Shown: positions 20,586 to 27,132 of the stretch, in pieces
Layout: each line of letters starts with the position of its first letter
How positions within the stretch are numbered: position 1 is the first letter of the stretch
NCBI RefSeq assembly: GCF_000964005.1
Contig: NZ_JXYP01000009.1
Coordinates: 1 to 64,000 of the forward strand
From: Williamsia herbipolensis
GTDB lineage: Bacteria; Actinomycetota; Actinomycetes; Mycobacteriales; Mycobacteriaceae
Length of the DNA: 64,000 nt
Reading direction: 5' to 3'
The notes under the pieces: generated by a model
Told to the model about the DNA's origin: nothing
The model's input: only the letters and a program-made list of their open reading frames with translations
Databases searched by the model: none
Translations under genes and position numbers: made by a program

Positions 20586-21095
20586 ATGCATGACAAAGCG
20601 ACGGACGACGGCGGTGGGGCGCTCGACCGCACGGGTCTCGAATCGGCGATGGCGTCGGACCTGCGTGCGTTGTCCGCTGCGTCGGAGCAGATCGGCCGCG
20701 TGTTCGCCGGGCGGCATGGTCTCAGTGCCAACGATTTCCAGGCGTTGCTGCGGATCATGGTCGCCGACGTGGACGGGGAGCCACTCACCGTCGGGAAGTT
20801 GGGTTCGTCGCTGGGGATGTCGTCGGCGGCGATGACCTACCTGGTCGAGCGGATGATCAACTCCGAACACATTCGGCGCGAGCCGGATCCGAGCGATCGG
20901 CGCCGCGTCATCCTCCGCTACGACGACCACGGCATGGAGGTGGCGCGTGAGTTCTTCGGTCCGCTCGGAGCGGTCACCCGCGCCGCGCTCGCCGACCTCG
21001 ACGATTCCGACCTCGCGACCGCGCACCGCGTGTTCGGTGTGTTGATCGACGCGCTGCGGGGCTACGCGCGCGACCTCGGCGAGTCGCCGAGCTAG
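20586..21095 (+). CDS. MarR-family regulator
   Basis: The 169-residue winged-helix protein shows GLSANDFQALLRIM, LTVGKLGSSLGMSSAAMTYL and the wing RREPDPSDRRRVILRYDDHG, the standard MarR DNA-binding domain. It lies divergent to the MMPL exporter. The 73-base gap is AT-rich by local standards, with two similar TCAGATTTTTA and TGAGATTTTAG stretches that could bear the operator. Repression of the exporter is inferred. Its last four bases overlap the convergent hydrolase stop. Confidence 0.9.
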   Translation: MHDKATDDGGGALDRTGLESAMASDLRALSAASEQIGRVFAGRHGLSANDFQALLRIMVADVDGEPLTVGKLGSSLGMSSAAMTYLVERMINSEHIRREPDPSDRRRVILRYDDHGMEVAREFFGPLGAVTRAALADLDDSDLATAHRVFGVLIDALRGYARDLGESPS

Positions 21096-22036
21096 CGGTT
21101 GGTCCTGTTCACGGCCGACTCGCCCCGGTGAACGGTCCGCTCGATGCCGTCGATGATCTCGGGCCAGAAGCGACGGGCCAGATCGTGACCCATCTCGTTG
21201 ACGATCATCAGTTCGGCGTCGGGGAGGGCGCGGGCCGTCGCCTCGCCGCCGGAGTGCGCGATCACCGGGTCACGGTCGCCGTGGATGACGAGCGCGGGCA
21301 TTGTCGATGCCTGCAGGCCCGGGGTGCGGTCGGTCTCGGCGAAGATCGCCGCGATCTGACGGCCCGAGCCGGATTCGTCGGTGGACCGCGCGAGTGACCG
21401 CGGCATGATGTCGCGGACGTCGGCGGTGTCGGCCTCGGTTCGACCGAGCGAGCCGATGCGTTCGAAGGCCGCGATCATGTCCTCGACCGGGTCGGGCTTC
21501 GGGATGCGCAGGGCGGCCAGCAGGTATCGCTTCGACGACTTCCCGTGTCTGCGGTCGCCGGTGCGACCCATGATCGACACCAGTGATCGGACGCTGTCGG
21601 GGTGCCGGATCGCGGTCTGTTGCGCGATCATCGATCCGAGCGAGACGCCGACGATGTGCGCGCCGGCAGGTGCGACGGCCCGGATGAGGCCGGCGGTGTC
21701 GTCGGCCATGTCCTCGAGGGTGTAGGTCACCGGCGCTGTGCGCCGAAGGTACTGCAGCGCAGTGGGTACCGGACCGCGGAAGCGGGTCGACCGGCCGACG
21801 TCGCGGTTGTCGAAGCGCACCACACGAAGACCTCGTGCCACCAGCTCGTGGCAGAAGTCGTCGCGCCACCACAGCATGTCGAGGCCGAGCCCCATGATGA
21901 GCACGACGGTCGGGGTTTCGGTCGGCACCGCGGTGTCGGGGTGGGGCTCGAACACCTGGAAACACAGCGTCACCGCGCCCACGCGGAGGAACTGCTCGGG
22001 AGGCGTGGTCTCGGCTGCGGACGTGTCGGGGGCCAT
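21092..22036 (-). CDS. Alpha/beta hydrolase
   Basis: The 314-residue protein has the fold markers VVLIMGLGLDMLWW (oxyanion-hole region), RVVRFDNRDVGRSTRF, the nucleophile elbow GVSLGSM, PALVIHGDRDPVI with the acid residue, and NEMGHDL with the catalytic His. It resembles the YfhM/aclacinomycin methylesterase-like group of esterases. ATG 22036 is the natural start. The frame is open upstream only because the preceding HNH gene carries a frameshift and runs into it. Confidence 0.88.
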   Translation of the reverse strand: MAPDTSAAETTPPEQFLRVGAVTLCFQVFEPHPDTAVPTETPTVVLIMGLGLDMLWWRDDFCHELVARGLRVVRFDNRDVGRSTRFRGPVPTALQYLRRTAPVTYTLEDMADDTAGLIRAVAPAGAHIVGVSLGSMIAQQTAIRHPDSVRSLVSIMGRTGDRRHGKSSKRYLLAALRIPKPDPVEDMIAAFERIGSLGRTEADTADVRDIMPRSLARSTDESGSGRQIAAIFAETDRTPGLQASTMPALVIHGDRDPVIAHSGGEATARALPDAELMIVNEMGHDLARRFWPEIIDGIERTVHRGESAVNRTNR

Positions 22037-22064
22037 CGGACGCGAGTCTAGGCCGCCGGTCTGC

Positions 22065-23614
22065 TCAGAAGGGCGGCAGTTCGTCGTTGGCGGGGTCAGT
22101 GGCCCGGGCCTGTTCCTCGGTTTCGCGGTGCGGCGGTTGTGTTCGCGTTCTGTCTGTCTGCGGGCGTGTTTGTCTGCCAGGCGTGGTCGGCGTCTGGTGG
22201 GTGCAGGTTCTGTGGCGTTGTCCGCGGCGGGTGGTGCGTTCTGTGGTGCGGTGAAACGAATGTCTTTCAACGCGGGGAACAGGTCGGTGCCGTCGAATGC
22301 GGGCCCGGCCACCGTCAGGCCTTCGGGGGTGATGATCACTGACTCGATGCGGCCGTCGCGGCCGATGGTCTGATCATCGAGGAACGCGGTGTGGGTTTTC
22401 AGGTTGTGGTGCAGCCGGCACTTGGATCCGGTGTTCCCCGGGCACGTCTGCCCACCATGGGCCGGATGATCGTGGTCGTACTCGCGGACGTGGTCGATGT
22501 CGCAGACCCAGGCGGGACGTTCACATCCGGCGACGTCGCAATACAACGACCGGGCCCGCACAAGGGTGTCCAACGCGGTGGACGGCCGATACGGATCACC
22601 GGGTGTGTGCGGTGCGAGCGGGTCATCGGAATGCCCGATCGGGGCGACCGTCACACCAGGCTCGTCGATCAGTTCCTCGAGATGGGCTGGGGAGATCACG
22701 CCGTAGCCGTCCAGGAAACACGGTGTCTCGCCGTCCCCGGCAACCGTCTCCAAGTCACAGATCACGTGCAGCGTCATGCTGCTGCCGGTTCCTGGCACCG
22801 TGCGGGCAGAGGGCTCGTCATCATCTGCGACCGTCGGAGCGTCGCAGTCGTCACTGCCGCACTGGCATTCCCACACCACACCCATGATCAGACAAAAATG
22901 CGCATCGGATTTCCGGGCCGCCAACGACCGACCGTCCTTGTCACACACCGCGCGGGCCAGGGCGTCGACCCGCCGGGAGATCGCGATAGCTTTCTCCGCG
23001 GTGGACGTCGCTTCCACCCGTGCCATGCCGTCGTCGAGGCGTTCGGTCCAGAATCCGCGGGCGTCGACTACTGCTTTGCGGCGCGCACGCACGGCGTCGG
23101 GGTCGACCCGGTACACGCTGCGGTCGACCATGTCCCGGATCCGCGACGGCGACCATGACCCCCGACGCCGTAATGCGGCTGCGATCTCGCCGTCGACGAT
23201 CTGCTGGGCGTCACGATCGGTGACGAGGTCGGTGCGTTCGACGATCACCCGCACATACCGCGGCGCGAGCTTCCCGTCGCGCAGACACTCGGCGACCTTC
23301 GGTAACCGGTCGCGTAACGCGACGGCGGTGTCGACGATCCGTTCGGCCGCGCCTTGGGAGATGGAGTGGGTGATCGCGATCCGTGCCGCGCATTGCATGG
23401 TCGCGTCGAACGTCCGCCGGTCCGACGCCTCATCGGGAACCACCAACTGCCGGTGCAGTTCACCGGCATCGCGGTAGCGCATCCACTCCAGGAACGCCTG
23501 ACCGGCGGCGGCGTGAACCATGTTGCCCAACAGCGCGTTCACCGGCGCAGCAACGTGATCGGAGAGCAACCCCACCGACCCCGCATCCACCCCAGCCCAA
23601 CCCCCATCGTGCAT
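22065..23614 (-). pseudogene. DUF222/HNH endonuclease with C-terminal frameshift
   Basis: The first 480 or so residues are a normal DUF222 plus HNH protein. A helical DUF222 region is followed by the HNH core YCDVAGCERPAWVCDIDHV, GGQTCPGNTGSKCRLHHN and LKTHTAF. These nucleases (the 13E12-repeat type) are multi-copy in Gordonia and mycobacteria. After EREHNRR the frame departs from the family. In the -1 relative frame the sequence reads ETEEQARATDPANDELPPF and stops at 22065-22067, the classic family ending. A one-base deletion near 22125-22136, or a sequencing error, would explain this. Only the non-catalytic tail is affected, so the enzyme might still work. Confidence 0.78.
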
Positions 23615-23873: not shown

Positions 23874-24692
23874 GTGGCTGAATCGACGTCGGAAGCGTCG
23901 GCGTGGACGCTGTCTCCGTTGCAGTTTCGGCTGCTGTGGGGTGATGCGGCGGGGGCGCAGTTCCCGACGGAGCTCTGTGCTTTCGGTGATGAGAAGTACG
24001 ACACCGCCGATCACCAGGTCGCAGCGGAGAATGCTGAGCTCACCCGTCTGCGGGCCGCGATGACCCCGGCGAAATCCGAAGCGATTGCTGCGCTCACTCG
24101 TCCCCGCTACACGATCGGGCTGCTCGGTCTCGACGCGCGGAAGCCTCTGTCCGACACGTCGAGTCATGTGCGGGTGGTGAGCGCGTGGGGCGGCGAAGGT
24201 GACCATGTGATCGTGGTGCGCCAGAAGCCCGGCCCGTCGCCCTCGCATGGCGGCGAGGTGTCGGTGACGCGATCCCGCCTCGACACGTGGACCGATGATC
24301 TGGTTCGTCTGCTGCCGGCATCGACGGCCGCTGGTCGCTTACCGGCCGATGCCAATGTGCCGTTCTACGACCTCCCGATCGATGTGGAGGTGCTCCGTCA
24401 GGTCTCGGCAGACGCGCCGAAAACCACTGCTGCCGGTGTCTTCGTGCACGAGAAGCCCACCACCTGCGGGTCGATTCGAGTGCAGGTCGGTTCTGAGGTC
24501 GACGGTCGGCGACCGGAGCGGCTCACGATCCAATACCGCGACATCGACAAGGACGGACGATATCTGCTGGTGATCGACACTCCCGGGACTGCTGTGGGGG
24601 TCGATGATGCCAAGATGGCCTCGAGCATGAGACGTGCAGTGAACGCCGTGAAGAAGCGATACGACGCGCGCGCGAGCGCGGAATGGGGATGA
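23874..24692 (+). CDS. EspG-family type VII secretion chaperone
   Basis: The 272-residue product starts near WTLSPLQFRLLWGDAAG, the N-terminal signature of ESX secretion-associated EspG. It continues with AIAALTRPRYTIGLLGLDAR, HVIVVRQKPG and LVRLLPASTAAGRLPADANV, all EspG-like. EspG proteins are cytoplasmic chaperones that bind the tip of specific PPE-type substrates and deliver them to an ESX system. GTG 23874 was chosen because family similarity begins there and CGAGGG lies about 11 bases upstream; an in-frame ATG at 23715 adds only non-family sequence. It overlaps the next gene by ATGA, so the pair is translationally coupled. Confidence 0.75.
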   Translation: MAESTSEASAWTLSPLQFRLLWGDAAGAQFPTELCAFGDEKYDTADHQVAAENAELTRLRAAMTPAKSEAIAALTRPRYTIGLLGLDARKPLSDTSSHVRVVSAWGGEGDHVIVVRQKPGPSPSHGGEVSVTRSRLDTWTDDLVRLLPASTAAGRLPADANVPFYDLPIDVEVLRQVSADAPKTTAAGVFVHEKPTTCGSIRVQVGSEVDGRRPERLTIQYRDIDKDGRYLLVIDTPGTAVGVDDAKMASSMRRAVNAVKKRYDARASAEWG

Positions 24693-25396
24693 TGGTGCGC
24701 AAGCAAATCGGAGTCGGCGGAGCTTTCGTCAGTGTCTTGGCAGCGACCATGCTGACGGTGTCGGCGTGCAGTTCCGGAGGTGGTTCGGCGGAGCCTGCGG
24801 CCTCATCTTCGGCCAGCATCCAGTCGGCATCTGTCGCGCCGGGCGTCGAAAAGGACTCGGTCCTCGACCTGAACTCCACCAAGGACATGACCGGCGTCGT
24901 CACCACCGTCCCCATCGGCAAGAGTCCCTATGACAAAAATATGCCCGACATCTGCAACTTCATCACGCCCGCTGCAATGACTGAACTCGGGGTAGAGACC
25001 AAAAAGAAGGGATTTTACGGCTCCCCACTTGTCTACCAGGCCTGCCTACTTCGTCCTGCAGCGTCGTTCACGACAGATTTCACGCTGGGTGCGGGGATAT
25101 TTGTCAACAATATTCAGGAGCACCTCGGCGCCCCGTCTCTTAGAGATGCGCTAATCAGATCAGGGGTGAGCATAGCGCCGAAGGTCGAGGCCTACGAATT
25201 GCGGGATCGCGCAACCAATAAGACCGGTGGACCGTACTCGTGCGAAGTTGCGTGGGGAACATTTTATGGCACGGCAAGCATTAATATAATTGACGATAAC
25301 AGTGAGGAAGGAATCTGTGACCGGACGGTCGCTGCTGCCAAGATTCTTCAGCCCTTGCTTCCTAAATCGCCTTCGCAGATGAGGCCGACGTCATGA
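24689..25396 (+). CDS. DUF3558-type lipoprotein
   Basis: The 235-residue protein has a lipoprotein signal (hydrophobic stretch then TVSAC, Cys about residue 23) and a Ser/Ala linker. The mature domain has paired cysteines in DICNFITPAAM, QACLLRP, YSCEVAWG and EGICDRTV, matching DUF3558. Its function is unknown, but such lipoproteins often accompany ESX-type genes in actinobacteria. Three ATG codons (24683, 24689, 24692) are possible; 24689 overlaps the espG stop. From about 24,930 onward the DNA is strikingly AT-richer, with AGA, ATA and CTA codons, unlike the signal-peptide part. Its stop overlaps the next ATG. Confidence 0.72.
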   Translation: MMVRKQIGVGGAFVSVLAATMLTVSACSSGGGSAEPAASSSASIQSASVAPGVEKDSVLDLNSTKDMTGVVTTVPIGKSPYDKNMPDICNFITPAAMTELGVETKKKGFYGSPLVYQACLLRPAASFTTDFTLGAGIFVNNIQEHLGAPSLRDALIRSGVSIAPKVEAYELRDRATNKTGGPYSCEVAWGTFYGTASINIIDDNSEEGICDRTVAAAKILQPLLPKSPSQMRPTS

Positions 25397-27132
25397 CGGG
25401 GGAAGAACTTCGATTAGATCCAGCTGGAGCGGCCAAGATTGTCAACGCCTGCGCGGTTCTTGGCGTTGCGTTCGACGATATGAGACTGCTTGCGCGGAAC
25501 CTAACCAGCGTCCGCGCAAGCGGTCTCTACGGCTCGGGATCCGGCGTAGACGGCAAGCTATCTCAGCTCGGCGAAGTGGCTGTCAATGCTCTGAATATGC
25601 TGCTTGAAGCCATCGAAAGCGCGGAAAAGGCTGCGCGCGGAGCGGGGCAAGCATTGATTAACCAGGATGACGCGAGCCAACGATCAATAGCCCGAGCGCT
25701 GGATGCGCCCGATGGCATTGATCCTATGGCCAAGGTGCAAACACCGGATGGGCCGCTGACGTCTGATTCAAAGCCAACAATTGCGAATCAGCCCACCACT
25801 CCTTCAAAACCTGCCACCGGGCCTGCGTCTGGCAACTTTCCGATGGGGTTGACGCCCGAGCCGATTACGAACTTCTCACTCGATCCGGCAATCGCCGCGT
25901 TAGGCCCCGCGGTACCTTCAGCCTTGACCACTTTGGCTCAGCAGTGGCTCCAACTTGCCAATGCGCTAAATGCCGCATTTTTCGATTTTGACCACCAGAT
26001 CTCGATTCTTGGTACCGATGTATTCTCGGGTGAGGCAGCGTCGAAAATGAAGGGTTCTCTCGACTTGTTCTCGAGCCGAGGCAAGCAGATTGCAACCGAA
26101 GCTCAAGCAAATTCGGCGTCAATCAATACATGGGCCGAGTCGGTGGGGCAGTCGCAGTCGCAGGTGCATATGCTTGAACAGAACCGCGCCACCGCGTTGG
26201 CGGCCGCGACTCCTGAGAACGGTCTCAATGTGCACGCGCTGTATGACGGGCTTTCGCAGTCACAGTTGAGTGCGACGTGGAATCCGCCGATCGGCAGCAT
26301 GAACGGGTCGATGGTGAATTTGTCCGACCCGACGAGTCCGGTGGTGGGGACGCCGTTGTATCTGCCGGGTATGGGACCCAAGGCTGCTTCGGGTGACGGC
26401 AGCGCTCTGGGTGGGTCGCAGTTTGTCGGAGGCGGTTCGAGTGGAGGCGGATCCGGCGGCGGAGGTGGAGGTGGTGGTGCCGCTGCGGCGGCAAGCCGTG
26501 GTGGCGCTTCGCAACTGCAGAGGGCGGGTAGCGGGACTGCTCCGTCTGCGGCGTCGGCCGCTGAGGGTGCGAAACCGGGTTCCGCGCCGTCGTCGGGTGC
26601 GGGGAATCCGGCGTCCGCCGCATCGCAGATGGGTAAGTCTGCTGAAGGCCTCACGCGTGGAGGGCTGGGCTCGCCGTCGACGCGGTCGTCGAGTGCTGAG
26701 GCGCTGAAGAGTGCGGCGGCCGCCGAGAAGGCAGCTGCAGAGAAGGCTGCGATGAAGGCCGCCAAAGCCGGTGGAGGCGGTGGCGGTGGTGGAGCCGGCG
26801 CGGGCGGGCTCGGCAAGGCCGGCGCCGGCGAGAGCGCGCTGAGTGCACGCGGTGCCAGTGCGATGTCCGCGGCCGAGAAGGCGATGGCTGCCGAACAGGC
26901 TGCGACGTCGAAGGCCGGGCCGGCCGGAACGTCGGCCGCCCCGATGGGTGGTCGTGGCGCGCAGGCCGGTGGCGAGGGCGACGGAAAGCACAAGACTGCG
27001 CGCTACCTGCGGTCTACGGAGAACGGCGAGGAGATCGTCGGCGAACTCGACGACGTCGCACCCACGGTCCTCGGGGGCCTCAACCTCGACACCTCCGACG
27101 ACAAGCCCGCCCCACCACGATCGTCGCGCTAG
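25393..27132 (+). CDS. WXG100/PPE-like putative type VII secretion substrate
   Basis: The 579-residue protein has an N-terminal helical region (about 1-110) and a Pro/Thr linker. A second helical bundle (about 150-290) has FSGEAA near residue 212 in the place of a WXG turn. Then come a conserved-looking segment (YDGLSQSQLSATWNPPIGS), a long Gly/Ala/Ser/Lys-rich region (about 340-530) and the tail ARYLRSTENGEEIVGELDDV followed by APTVLGG. Tails of this type occur on other actinobacterial ESX-linked proteins. No export motif YxxxD/E is obvious. Coupling to EspG and a lipoprotein supports secretion. DNA up to about 26,200 is AT-richer than the rest. Confidence 0.65.
   Translation: MTGEELRLDPAGAAKIVNACAVLGVAFDDMRLLARNLTSVRASGLYGSGSGVDGKLSQLGEVAVNALNMLLEAIESAEKAARGAGQALINQDDASQRSIARALDAPDGIDPMAKVQTPDGPLTSDSKPTIANQPTTPSKPATGPASGNFPMGLTPEPITNFSLDPAIAALGPAVPSALTTLAQQWLQLANALNAAFFDFDHQISILGTDVFSGEAASKMKGSLDLFSSRGKQIATEAQANSASINTWAESVGQSQSQVHMLEQNRATALAAATPENGLNVHALYDGLSQSQLSATWNPPIGSMNGSMVNLSDPTSPVVGTPLYLPGMGPKAASGDGSALGGSQFVGGGSSGGGSGGGGGGGGAAAAASRGGASQLQRAGSGTAPSAASAAEGAKPGSAPSSGAGNPASAASQMGKSAEGLTRGGLGSPSTRSSSAEALKSAAAAEKAAAEKAAMKAAKAGGGGGGGGAGAGGLGKAGAGESALSARGASAMSAAEKAMAAEQAATSKAGPAGTSAAPMGGRGAQAGGEGDGKHKTARYLRSTENGEEIVGELDDVAPTVLGGLNLDTSDDKPAPPRSSR

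Follow-up and report, generated by a model that had tools for sequence, protein, structure and literature searches.

A divergent EspG, a DUF3558-type lipoprotein and an EspB-like PE-PPE fusion form a candidate type VII substrate cassette in Williamsia herbipolensis

In a 64,000-nucleotide stretch of Williamsia herbipolensis DNA (contig NZ_JXYP01000009.1, positions 1 to 64,000 of the forward strand; hereafter the window) we found three overlapping genes (Table 1) that probably make up a dispersed, paralogous type VII substrate cassette with a dedicated EspG, fed to the sole ESX machine of the genome, with a lipoprotein as partner. The genome holds one paralogous triple, which lies on another contig (C13) inside the ESX core locus, between mycP and eccB. 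The two triples share the same arrangement at 39-45% identity, and the three ORFs are still open; this, together with the recurrence of the same components in many genomes, argues that the triple in the window is more than a chance association.

Table 1. Coordinates of the three genes and of the parts of gene 3 in the window
Feature	Coordinates	Strand	Evidence
Gene 1: divergent EspG-family chaperone, 272 aa, GTG start	23874..24692	+	fold match of predicted model; PF14011 in relatives
Gene 2: DUF3558-type lipoprotein	24683..25396 (start alternatively 24689 or 24692)	+	PF12079 in relatives; invariant cysteines
Gene 3: EspB-like PE-PPE fusion, predicted type VII substrate, 579 aa	25393..27132	+	fold match of model
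PE-like first bundle of gene 3 (residues 1-112)	25393..25728	+	bundle profile finds separate PE-like genes
PPE-like second bundle of gene 3 (about residues 147-330)	25831..26382	+	alignment, motif scan, fold match
Gly/Ala-rich low-complexity linker of gene 3	26383..26985	+	direct reading of translation
Conserved C-terminal tail of gene 3, KHKTARYLRSTENGEEIVGELDDVAPTVLGGLNLDTSDD	26986..27102	+	tail profile

EccB and EccE are each encoded once in the genome, both on C13, where the ESX locus comprises EccA, EccC, EccB, EccE, EccD, MycP, an Esx pair, PE, PPE and a canonical EspG (the EccD and MycP ORFs being identified by position and translation). When the C13 EccA, EccC, EccB, EccE, Esx, PE and PPE proteins were used as queries, no match was found in the window, nor was any found there with C13 EccD and MycP, and the WXG100 matches lie on contigs other than that of the window; the earlier observation that no ESX core gene is present there was thus borne out. 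A single EccB implies a single ESX machine, and because it is on C13, the window module, if exported by type VII secretion, depends on the C13 machine, in agreement with the proposal that the system is encoded elsewhere. The original prediction had also regarded the triple as a possible orphan unit. This reading holds in that the triple has no ESX core of its own, but the occurrence of the same triple within the only ESX core locus of the genome makes it a dispersed paralogue of a core-locus cassette rather than a free-standing system. On C13 the gene order is that of the window, with the EspG-like gene followed 13 bases later by the lipoprotein gene and then, with an ATGA overlap, by the substrate gene; the start of the paralogous EspG gene overlaps the stop of mycP (TGATG). 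ESX-4 was considered as a second export route and dropped, as the genome has only one EccB. That EccB sits in a locus of the eccA-E/PE/PPE/espG type (C13; L033), so there is apparently no separate ESX-4, unlike the situation in a published survey in which ESX-4 is reported throughout the mycolic-acid genera.

Both gene junctions in the window had been described as ATGA overlaps. The overlap of genes 2 and 3 (25393-25396) is indeed exact, but that of genes 1 and 2, GGGGATGATGG, contains three in-frame ATGs, at 24683, 24689 and 24692, and measures 10, 4 or 1 bases to the EspG stop according to which of them is used. The surrounding genes (a DUF222/alpha-beta-hydrolase ORF, an MMPL transporter, a MarR regulator, an aldo-keto reductase and a CsbD-like protein) gave no pointer to type VII secretion, promoter and terminator scans stayed near shuffle level with no promoter-like site found, and plasmid searches returned no matches and hence no plasmid evidence. 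One of these neighbours, an 840-aa ORF at 21092-23614 on the reverse strand, carries both a DUF222 (13E12-type) region and an alpha/beta hydrolase domain and is either an unusual fusion or two genes with no stop between them. Third-position GC is 0.63-0.74 across the triple, compared with 0.82-0.87 in the neighbours; over the lipoprotein gene and both bundles (24683-26382) it is 0.63-0.66, against the same 0.82-0.87 in the flanking genes, and it is likewise low in the core-locus copy.

The first gene had been called EspG-like, and its predicted structure argues for this assignment. Its AlphaFold2 model (pLDDT 95) has 15 PDB matches at E≤1e-3, every one of them EspG1, EspG3 or EspG5 (best 2.2e-8, TM 0.5-0.6). 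A profile check gave a divided answer: the protein itself matches nothing in Pfam, PF14011 (EspG) included, or in NCBIfam, but PF14011 is matched by 14 of 25 aligned homologues (best 1.2e-39), and the core-locus paralogue scores 25.9 bits against a cut-off of 27. PDB sequence-profile searches were uninformative for both the EspG and the DUF3558 protein, and a search of the contigs of the genome with the gene 1 protein alone gave no match. The identification of gene 1 as an EspG-like chaperone is thus supported by model and relatives, and binding to a PPE tip is predicted from the fold.

Gene 2, as had been suggested, is of the DUF3558 type. Its own score against PF12079 is weak (E=4.9e-4, 20.5 bits, below the cut-off of 34.1), and 16 of 18 relatives match the family (E≤0.1). 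A hydrophobic N-terminal stretch precedes VSAC at residues 26-29, which predicts a lipoprotein with a signal peptide and a lipobox Cys; in the alignment of 18 sequences this cysteine (C29) is invariant, as are C91, C121, C187 and C212. A segment after a Ser-rich linker, KDSxxDLNSTKDMTGVVTT (24851-24907), is kept between species even as DNA and is possibly an interaction motif.

The third gene product combines two predicted helical bundles with a Gly/Ala-rich linker and, beyond it, a conserved tail. A structure model of residues 1-330, of medium confidence (pLDDT 77), has EspB at PDB ranks 1-8 (probability 0.99-1.00, E 2.8e-3 to 4.1e-2), followed by the PPE chains of PE/PPE/EspG complexes. No PDB match reached E≤1e-3, and with E-values this modest the fold assignment rests on the consistency of the matches, which by predicted fold place the protein as an EspB-like PE-PPE fusion, in line with the two-bundle, WXG/PPE-like architecture originally described. 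Sequence profiles for PPE, WXG100 and EspB_fam (Pfam, NCBIfam) did not match gene 3; relatives gave matches to PF06013 (0.0037) and TIGR03930 (3.2e-4). Most of the weak PDB sequence-profile matches of gene 3 were to antibody fragments and were discarded as artefacts of the Gly linker. At the YxxxD/E position after the PE helical hairpin gene 3 reads LINQD; the 13 fused copies from Williamsia and Gordonia all keep the acid but have Ile, Leu, Thr or Met in place of Tyr. Among the unfused PE-like partners encoded close to these genes, the position is Tyr in 12 cases, Phe in 4 and something else in 7. At the WxG position between the PPE/WXG helices gene 3 has FSG, the other 10 of the 11 aligned fused copies having WxG. 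As judged from these alignments, neither canonical type VII motif keeps its aromatic residue in gene 3 (Y has become L, and WxG has become FSG); the motif signal may have relaxed in this lineage, or else the copy in the window may be impaired.

That the substrate tail is conserved, as had been noticed, was confirmed with a profile, which found it in 29 of 37 genomes of the family and in none of 24 other genomes of the order, ending 0-42 residues ahead of the protein C-terminus. A search of the same genome for further loci carrying the tail returned, besides gene 3, its paralogue (75%) and a 431-residue protein (42%) that adjoins an EspC-like gene in the C13 ESX locus. Taken at the level of sequence, the tail is thus a real motif that is not specific to gene 3. 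EccE is present in all 29 tail-positive genomes and also in 11 of the 24 tail-negative ones outside the family, which indicates that the tail does not simply follow ESX; any link between tail and mycomembrane is confounded by the relatedness of the family.

A probable dedication of the EspGs to their substrates is suggested by the Williamsia genomes. Seven of eight genomes have a single EccB, and each carries from 1 to 5 full-length divergent EspGs, in addition to which a canonical EspG stands beside PE/PPE in the core loci examined. With one ESX system there is nothing for several EspGs to select among, and the divergent EspGs are most simply read as probably dedicated each to its own substrate. 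In one genome five dispersed cassettes each keep their own full-length EspG. Among 11 triples, correlations of identity matrices were 0.84 for EspG and PPE, 0.84 for lipoprotein and PPE and 0.82 for EspG and lipoprotein, as compared with 0.18 for PE and C-terminus, values that are inflated by shared descent because the genes are linked and duplicated together. Within Williamsia sp. CHRR-6 the dispersed copies b, c and d share 84-87% of the C-terminal half. For the EspG, lipoprotein, PE and PPE parts of these copies, identity is 23-35% in two of the pairs and 38-56% in the remaining one. A similar picture is given at the DNA level by three dispersed substrates of one genome (L053 4349-6133, L054 3827-5755 and L057 8081-10132), whose C-terminal halves are 81-83% identical and whose heads are mostly unalignable; such homogenised halves could possibly reflect gene conversion. 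Tandem arrays lie beside intact cassettes at L054 and L059, with extra DUF3558 lipoproteins, truncated EspG and substrate fragments. These arrays suggest turnover by duplication, deletion or recombination; a store of silent cassettes serving antigenic variation through gene conversion is hinted at there, as a suggestion only.

Linkage of the same parts extends to other genera. Among 35 tail-bearing loci that were selected solely for the tail and come from neither Williamsia nor Gordonia jinhuaensis, an EspG gene is directly adjacent in 19, with an exact 4-base overlap in 10 of these (ORF starts were assigned by rule, and artefacts of start choice account for a few large overlaps), and EspG, DUF3558 and the tail protein occur together within 600 bases in 12. 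PF12079 was above cut-off in all ten lipoproteins tested that adjoin tail loci in other genera. Of the ten tail proteins tested, eight matched a PPE or WXG100 profile, for the most part with scores short of the curated cut-off. A profile built on the PE-like first bundle finds separate small PE-like genes beside DUF3558 lipoproteins in other genera, and in 12 loci the two genes overlap by 4 bases. The usual order there is PE-like, DUF3558, tailed PPE, EspG; in Williamsia it is EspG, DUF3558, PE::PPE fusion, and in a few loci (L068, L142) PPE, EspG, PE, DUF3558. Recurrence of the same parts in permuted order is strong evidence of a functional unit. Elsewhere in other genera, proteins of 547-794 aa with a PE-like bundle and YxxxD/E adjoin EspG genes (L062, L063 and L064) and would, from their sequences, be further EspG-linked substrates of different size.

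In mycobacteria, EspG binds the tip of the PPE protein (PMC5311947, PMC9811218), and the domain it recognises decides which ESX system is used (PMC5311947). The window triple resembles the EspG1, EspG3 and EspG5 complexes with PE-PPE (ESX-1, ESX-3 and ESX-5) in its EspG fold and PPE-type partner, so that binding at the bundle tip would be expected from the models; it differs from them in that Williamsia has several EspGs to one machine, with a substrate and a lipoprotein of its own next to each EspG. EspB of ESX-1, which provides the best fold matches, is likewise a single-chain PE-PPE fusion with a dedicated chaperone, but mycobacterial EspB uses EspK and not EspG, the two chaperones lacking structural homology (PMC9811218). 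In the window an EspG and a lipoprotein take the place of EspK, and gene 3 has FSG and LINQD where mycobacterial EspB has WxG and YxxxD. The C13 locus is like the ESX-4EVOL and ESX-1AN clusters described in PMC4791881 in its eccA-eccE, mycP, esx pair, PE/PPE and espG; it adds a second, divergent espG, a DUF3558 gene and an EspB-like gene, an addition absent from the passages of that source consulted here. In the open literature searched, we found no paper on Williamsia and type VII secretion, no description of the cassette in work on orphan or multiple EspGs, and no paper linking DUF3558 to type VII secretion. Provisionally, then, the novelty of the cassette lies in the combination of an EspB-like fusion with an EspG chaperone and a DUF3558 lipoprotein.

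For the physical binding, the export and its route, and the parts played by lipoprotein and tail, we infer a scheme in which the gene 1 EspG would cap the tip of the PPE bundle of the gene 3 protein in the cytosol, keep that protein soluble and present it to the sole ESX machine (EccB/C/D/E, MycP and EccA; C13). The gene 2 lipoprotein, exported through Sec, would meet the gene 3 protein beyond the inner membrane and most likely receive, hold or assemble it in the envelope, and the tail would serve all members as a common sorting or anchoring element, with head, chaperone and lipoprotein diverging together. This cassette reading is weakened by LINQD and FSG in gene 3, by the medium-confidence model, by the lack of a promoter-like site, by the use of EspK as chaperone of mycobacterial EspB and by the shared descent that confounds the matrix correlations. 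Alternatively, one could envision the window triple as a drifting copy of the core cassette that exports nothing any more, an explanation that would account for the loss of both canonical aromatics from gene 3, for the low third-position GC and for the broken remnants of tandem cassettes in sister genomes. Since the three ORFs are intact at about 40% identity with the lipoprotein cysteines and the tail kept, however, and since the core-locus copy is equally low in third-position GC and Tyr is absent from all fused copies, we consider such decay unlikely.

Somewhat less improbable, although still well short of the dedicated cassette, is that the EspGs are interchangeable, acting as general chaperones for all PE/PPE-like substrates of one machine, with linkage setting dosage only. 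The presence of only one machine would fit, as would two genomes (L159, L160) in which no EspG adjoins the lipoprotein-substrate pair although one is carried elsewhere; against it, EspG and PPE head show parallel divergence, and each of the five dispersed cassettes of one genome has its own full-length EspG. Some type VIIb toxins are accompanied by small adjacent lipoproteins, and the gene 3 protein could by analogy be a secreted antagonistic effector, with the DUF3558 lipoprotein as the producer's immunity protein. It is true that lipoprotein and head have co-diverged and that they differ among the paralogues of a single genome. The region beyond the two bundles, however, holds only the Gly/Ala-rich linker and the conserved tail, with no catalytic or toxin domain, and the paralogues have a homogenised C-terminal half, the reverse of what a polymorphic toxin end would show; of the explanations considered here we therefore regard this one as very improbable.

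A broader generalisation of the dedicated-cassette reading is possible, although we put it forward tentatively and with rather more doubt than belief: a four-part cassette of PE-like protein, DUF3558 lipoprotein, tailed PPE or EspB-like protein and EspG may be general in this mycolic-acid family, with dedicated EspGs feeding one machine, the lipoprotein as periplasmic taker, the tail as an envelope-sorting signal and a relaxed hydrophobic-xxx-acid motif replacing YxxxD/E. In the current understanding, EspG directs PE/PPE substrates to one among several ESX systems. Because Williamsia has a single system and as many as five dispersed divergent EspGs, chaperoning is uncoupled there from the choice of system, and the distinction can be tested directly in one organism. 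The linkage described here offers a first functional context for DUF3558 lipoproteins, and the tail provides a candidate motif with which to ask how substrates of type VII secretion pass through the mycomembrane or are retained in it.
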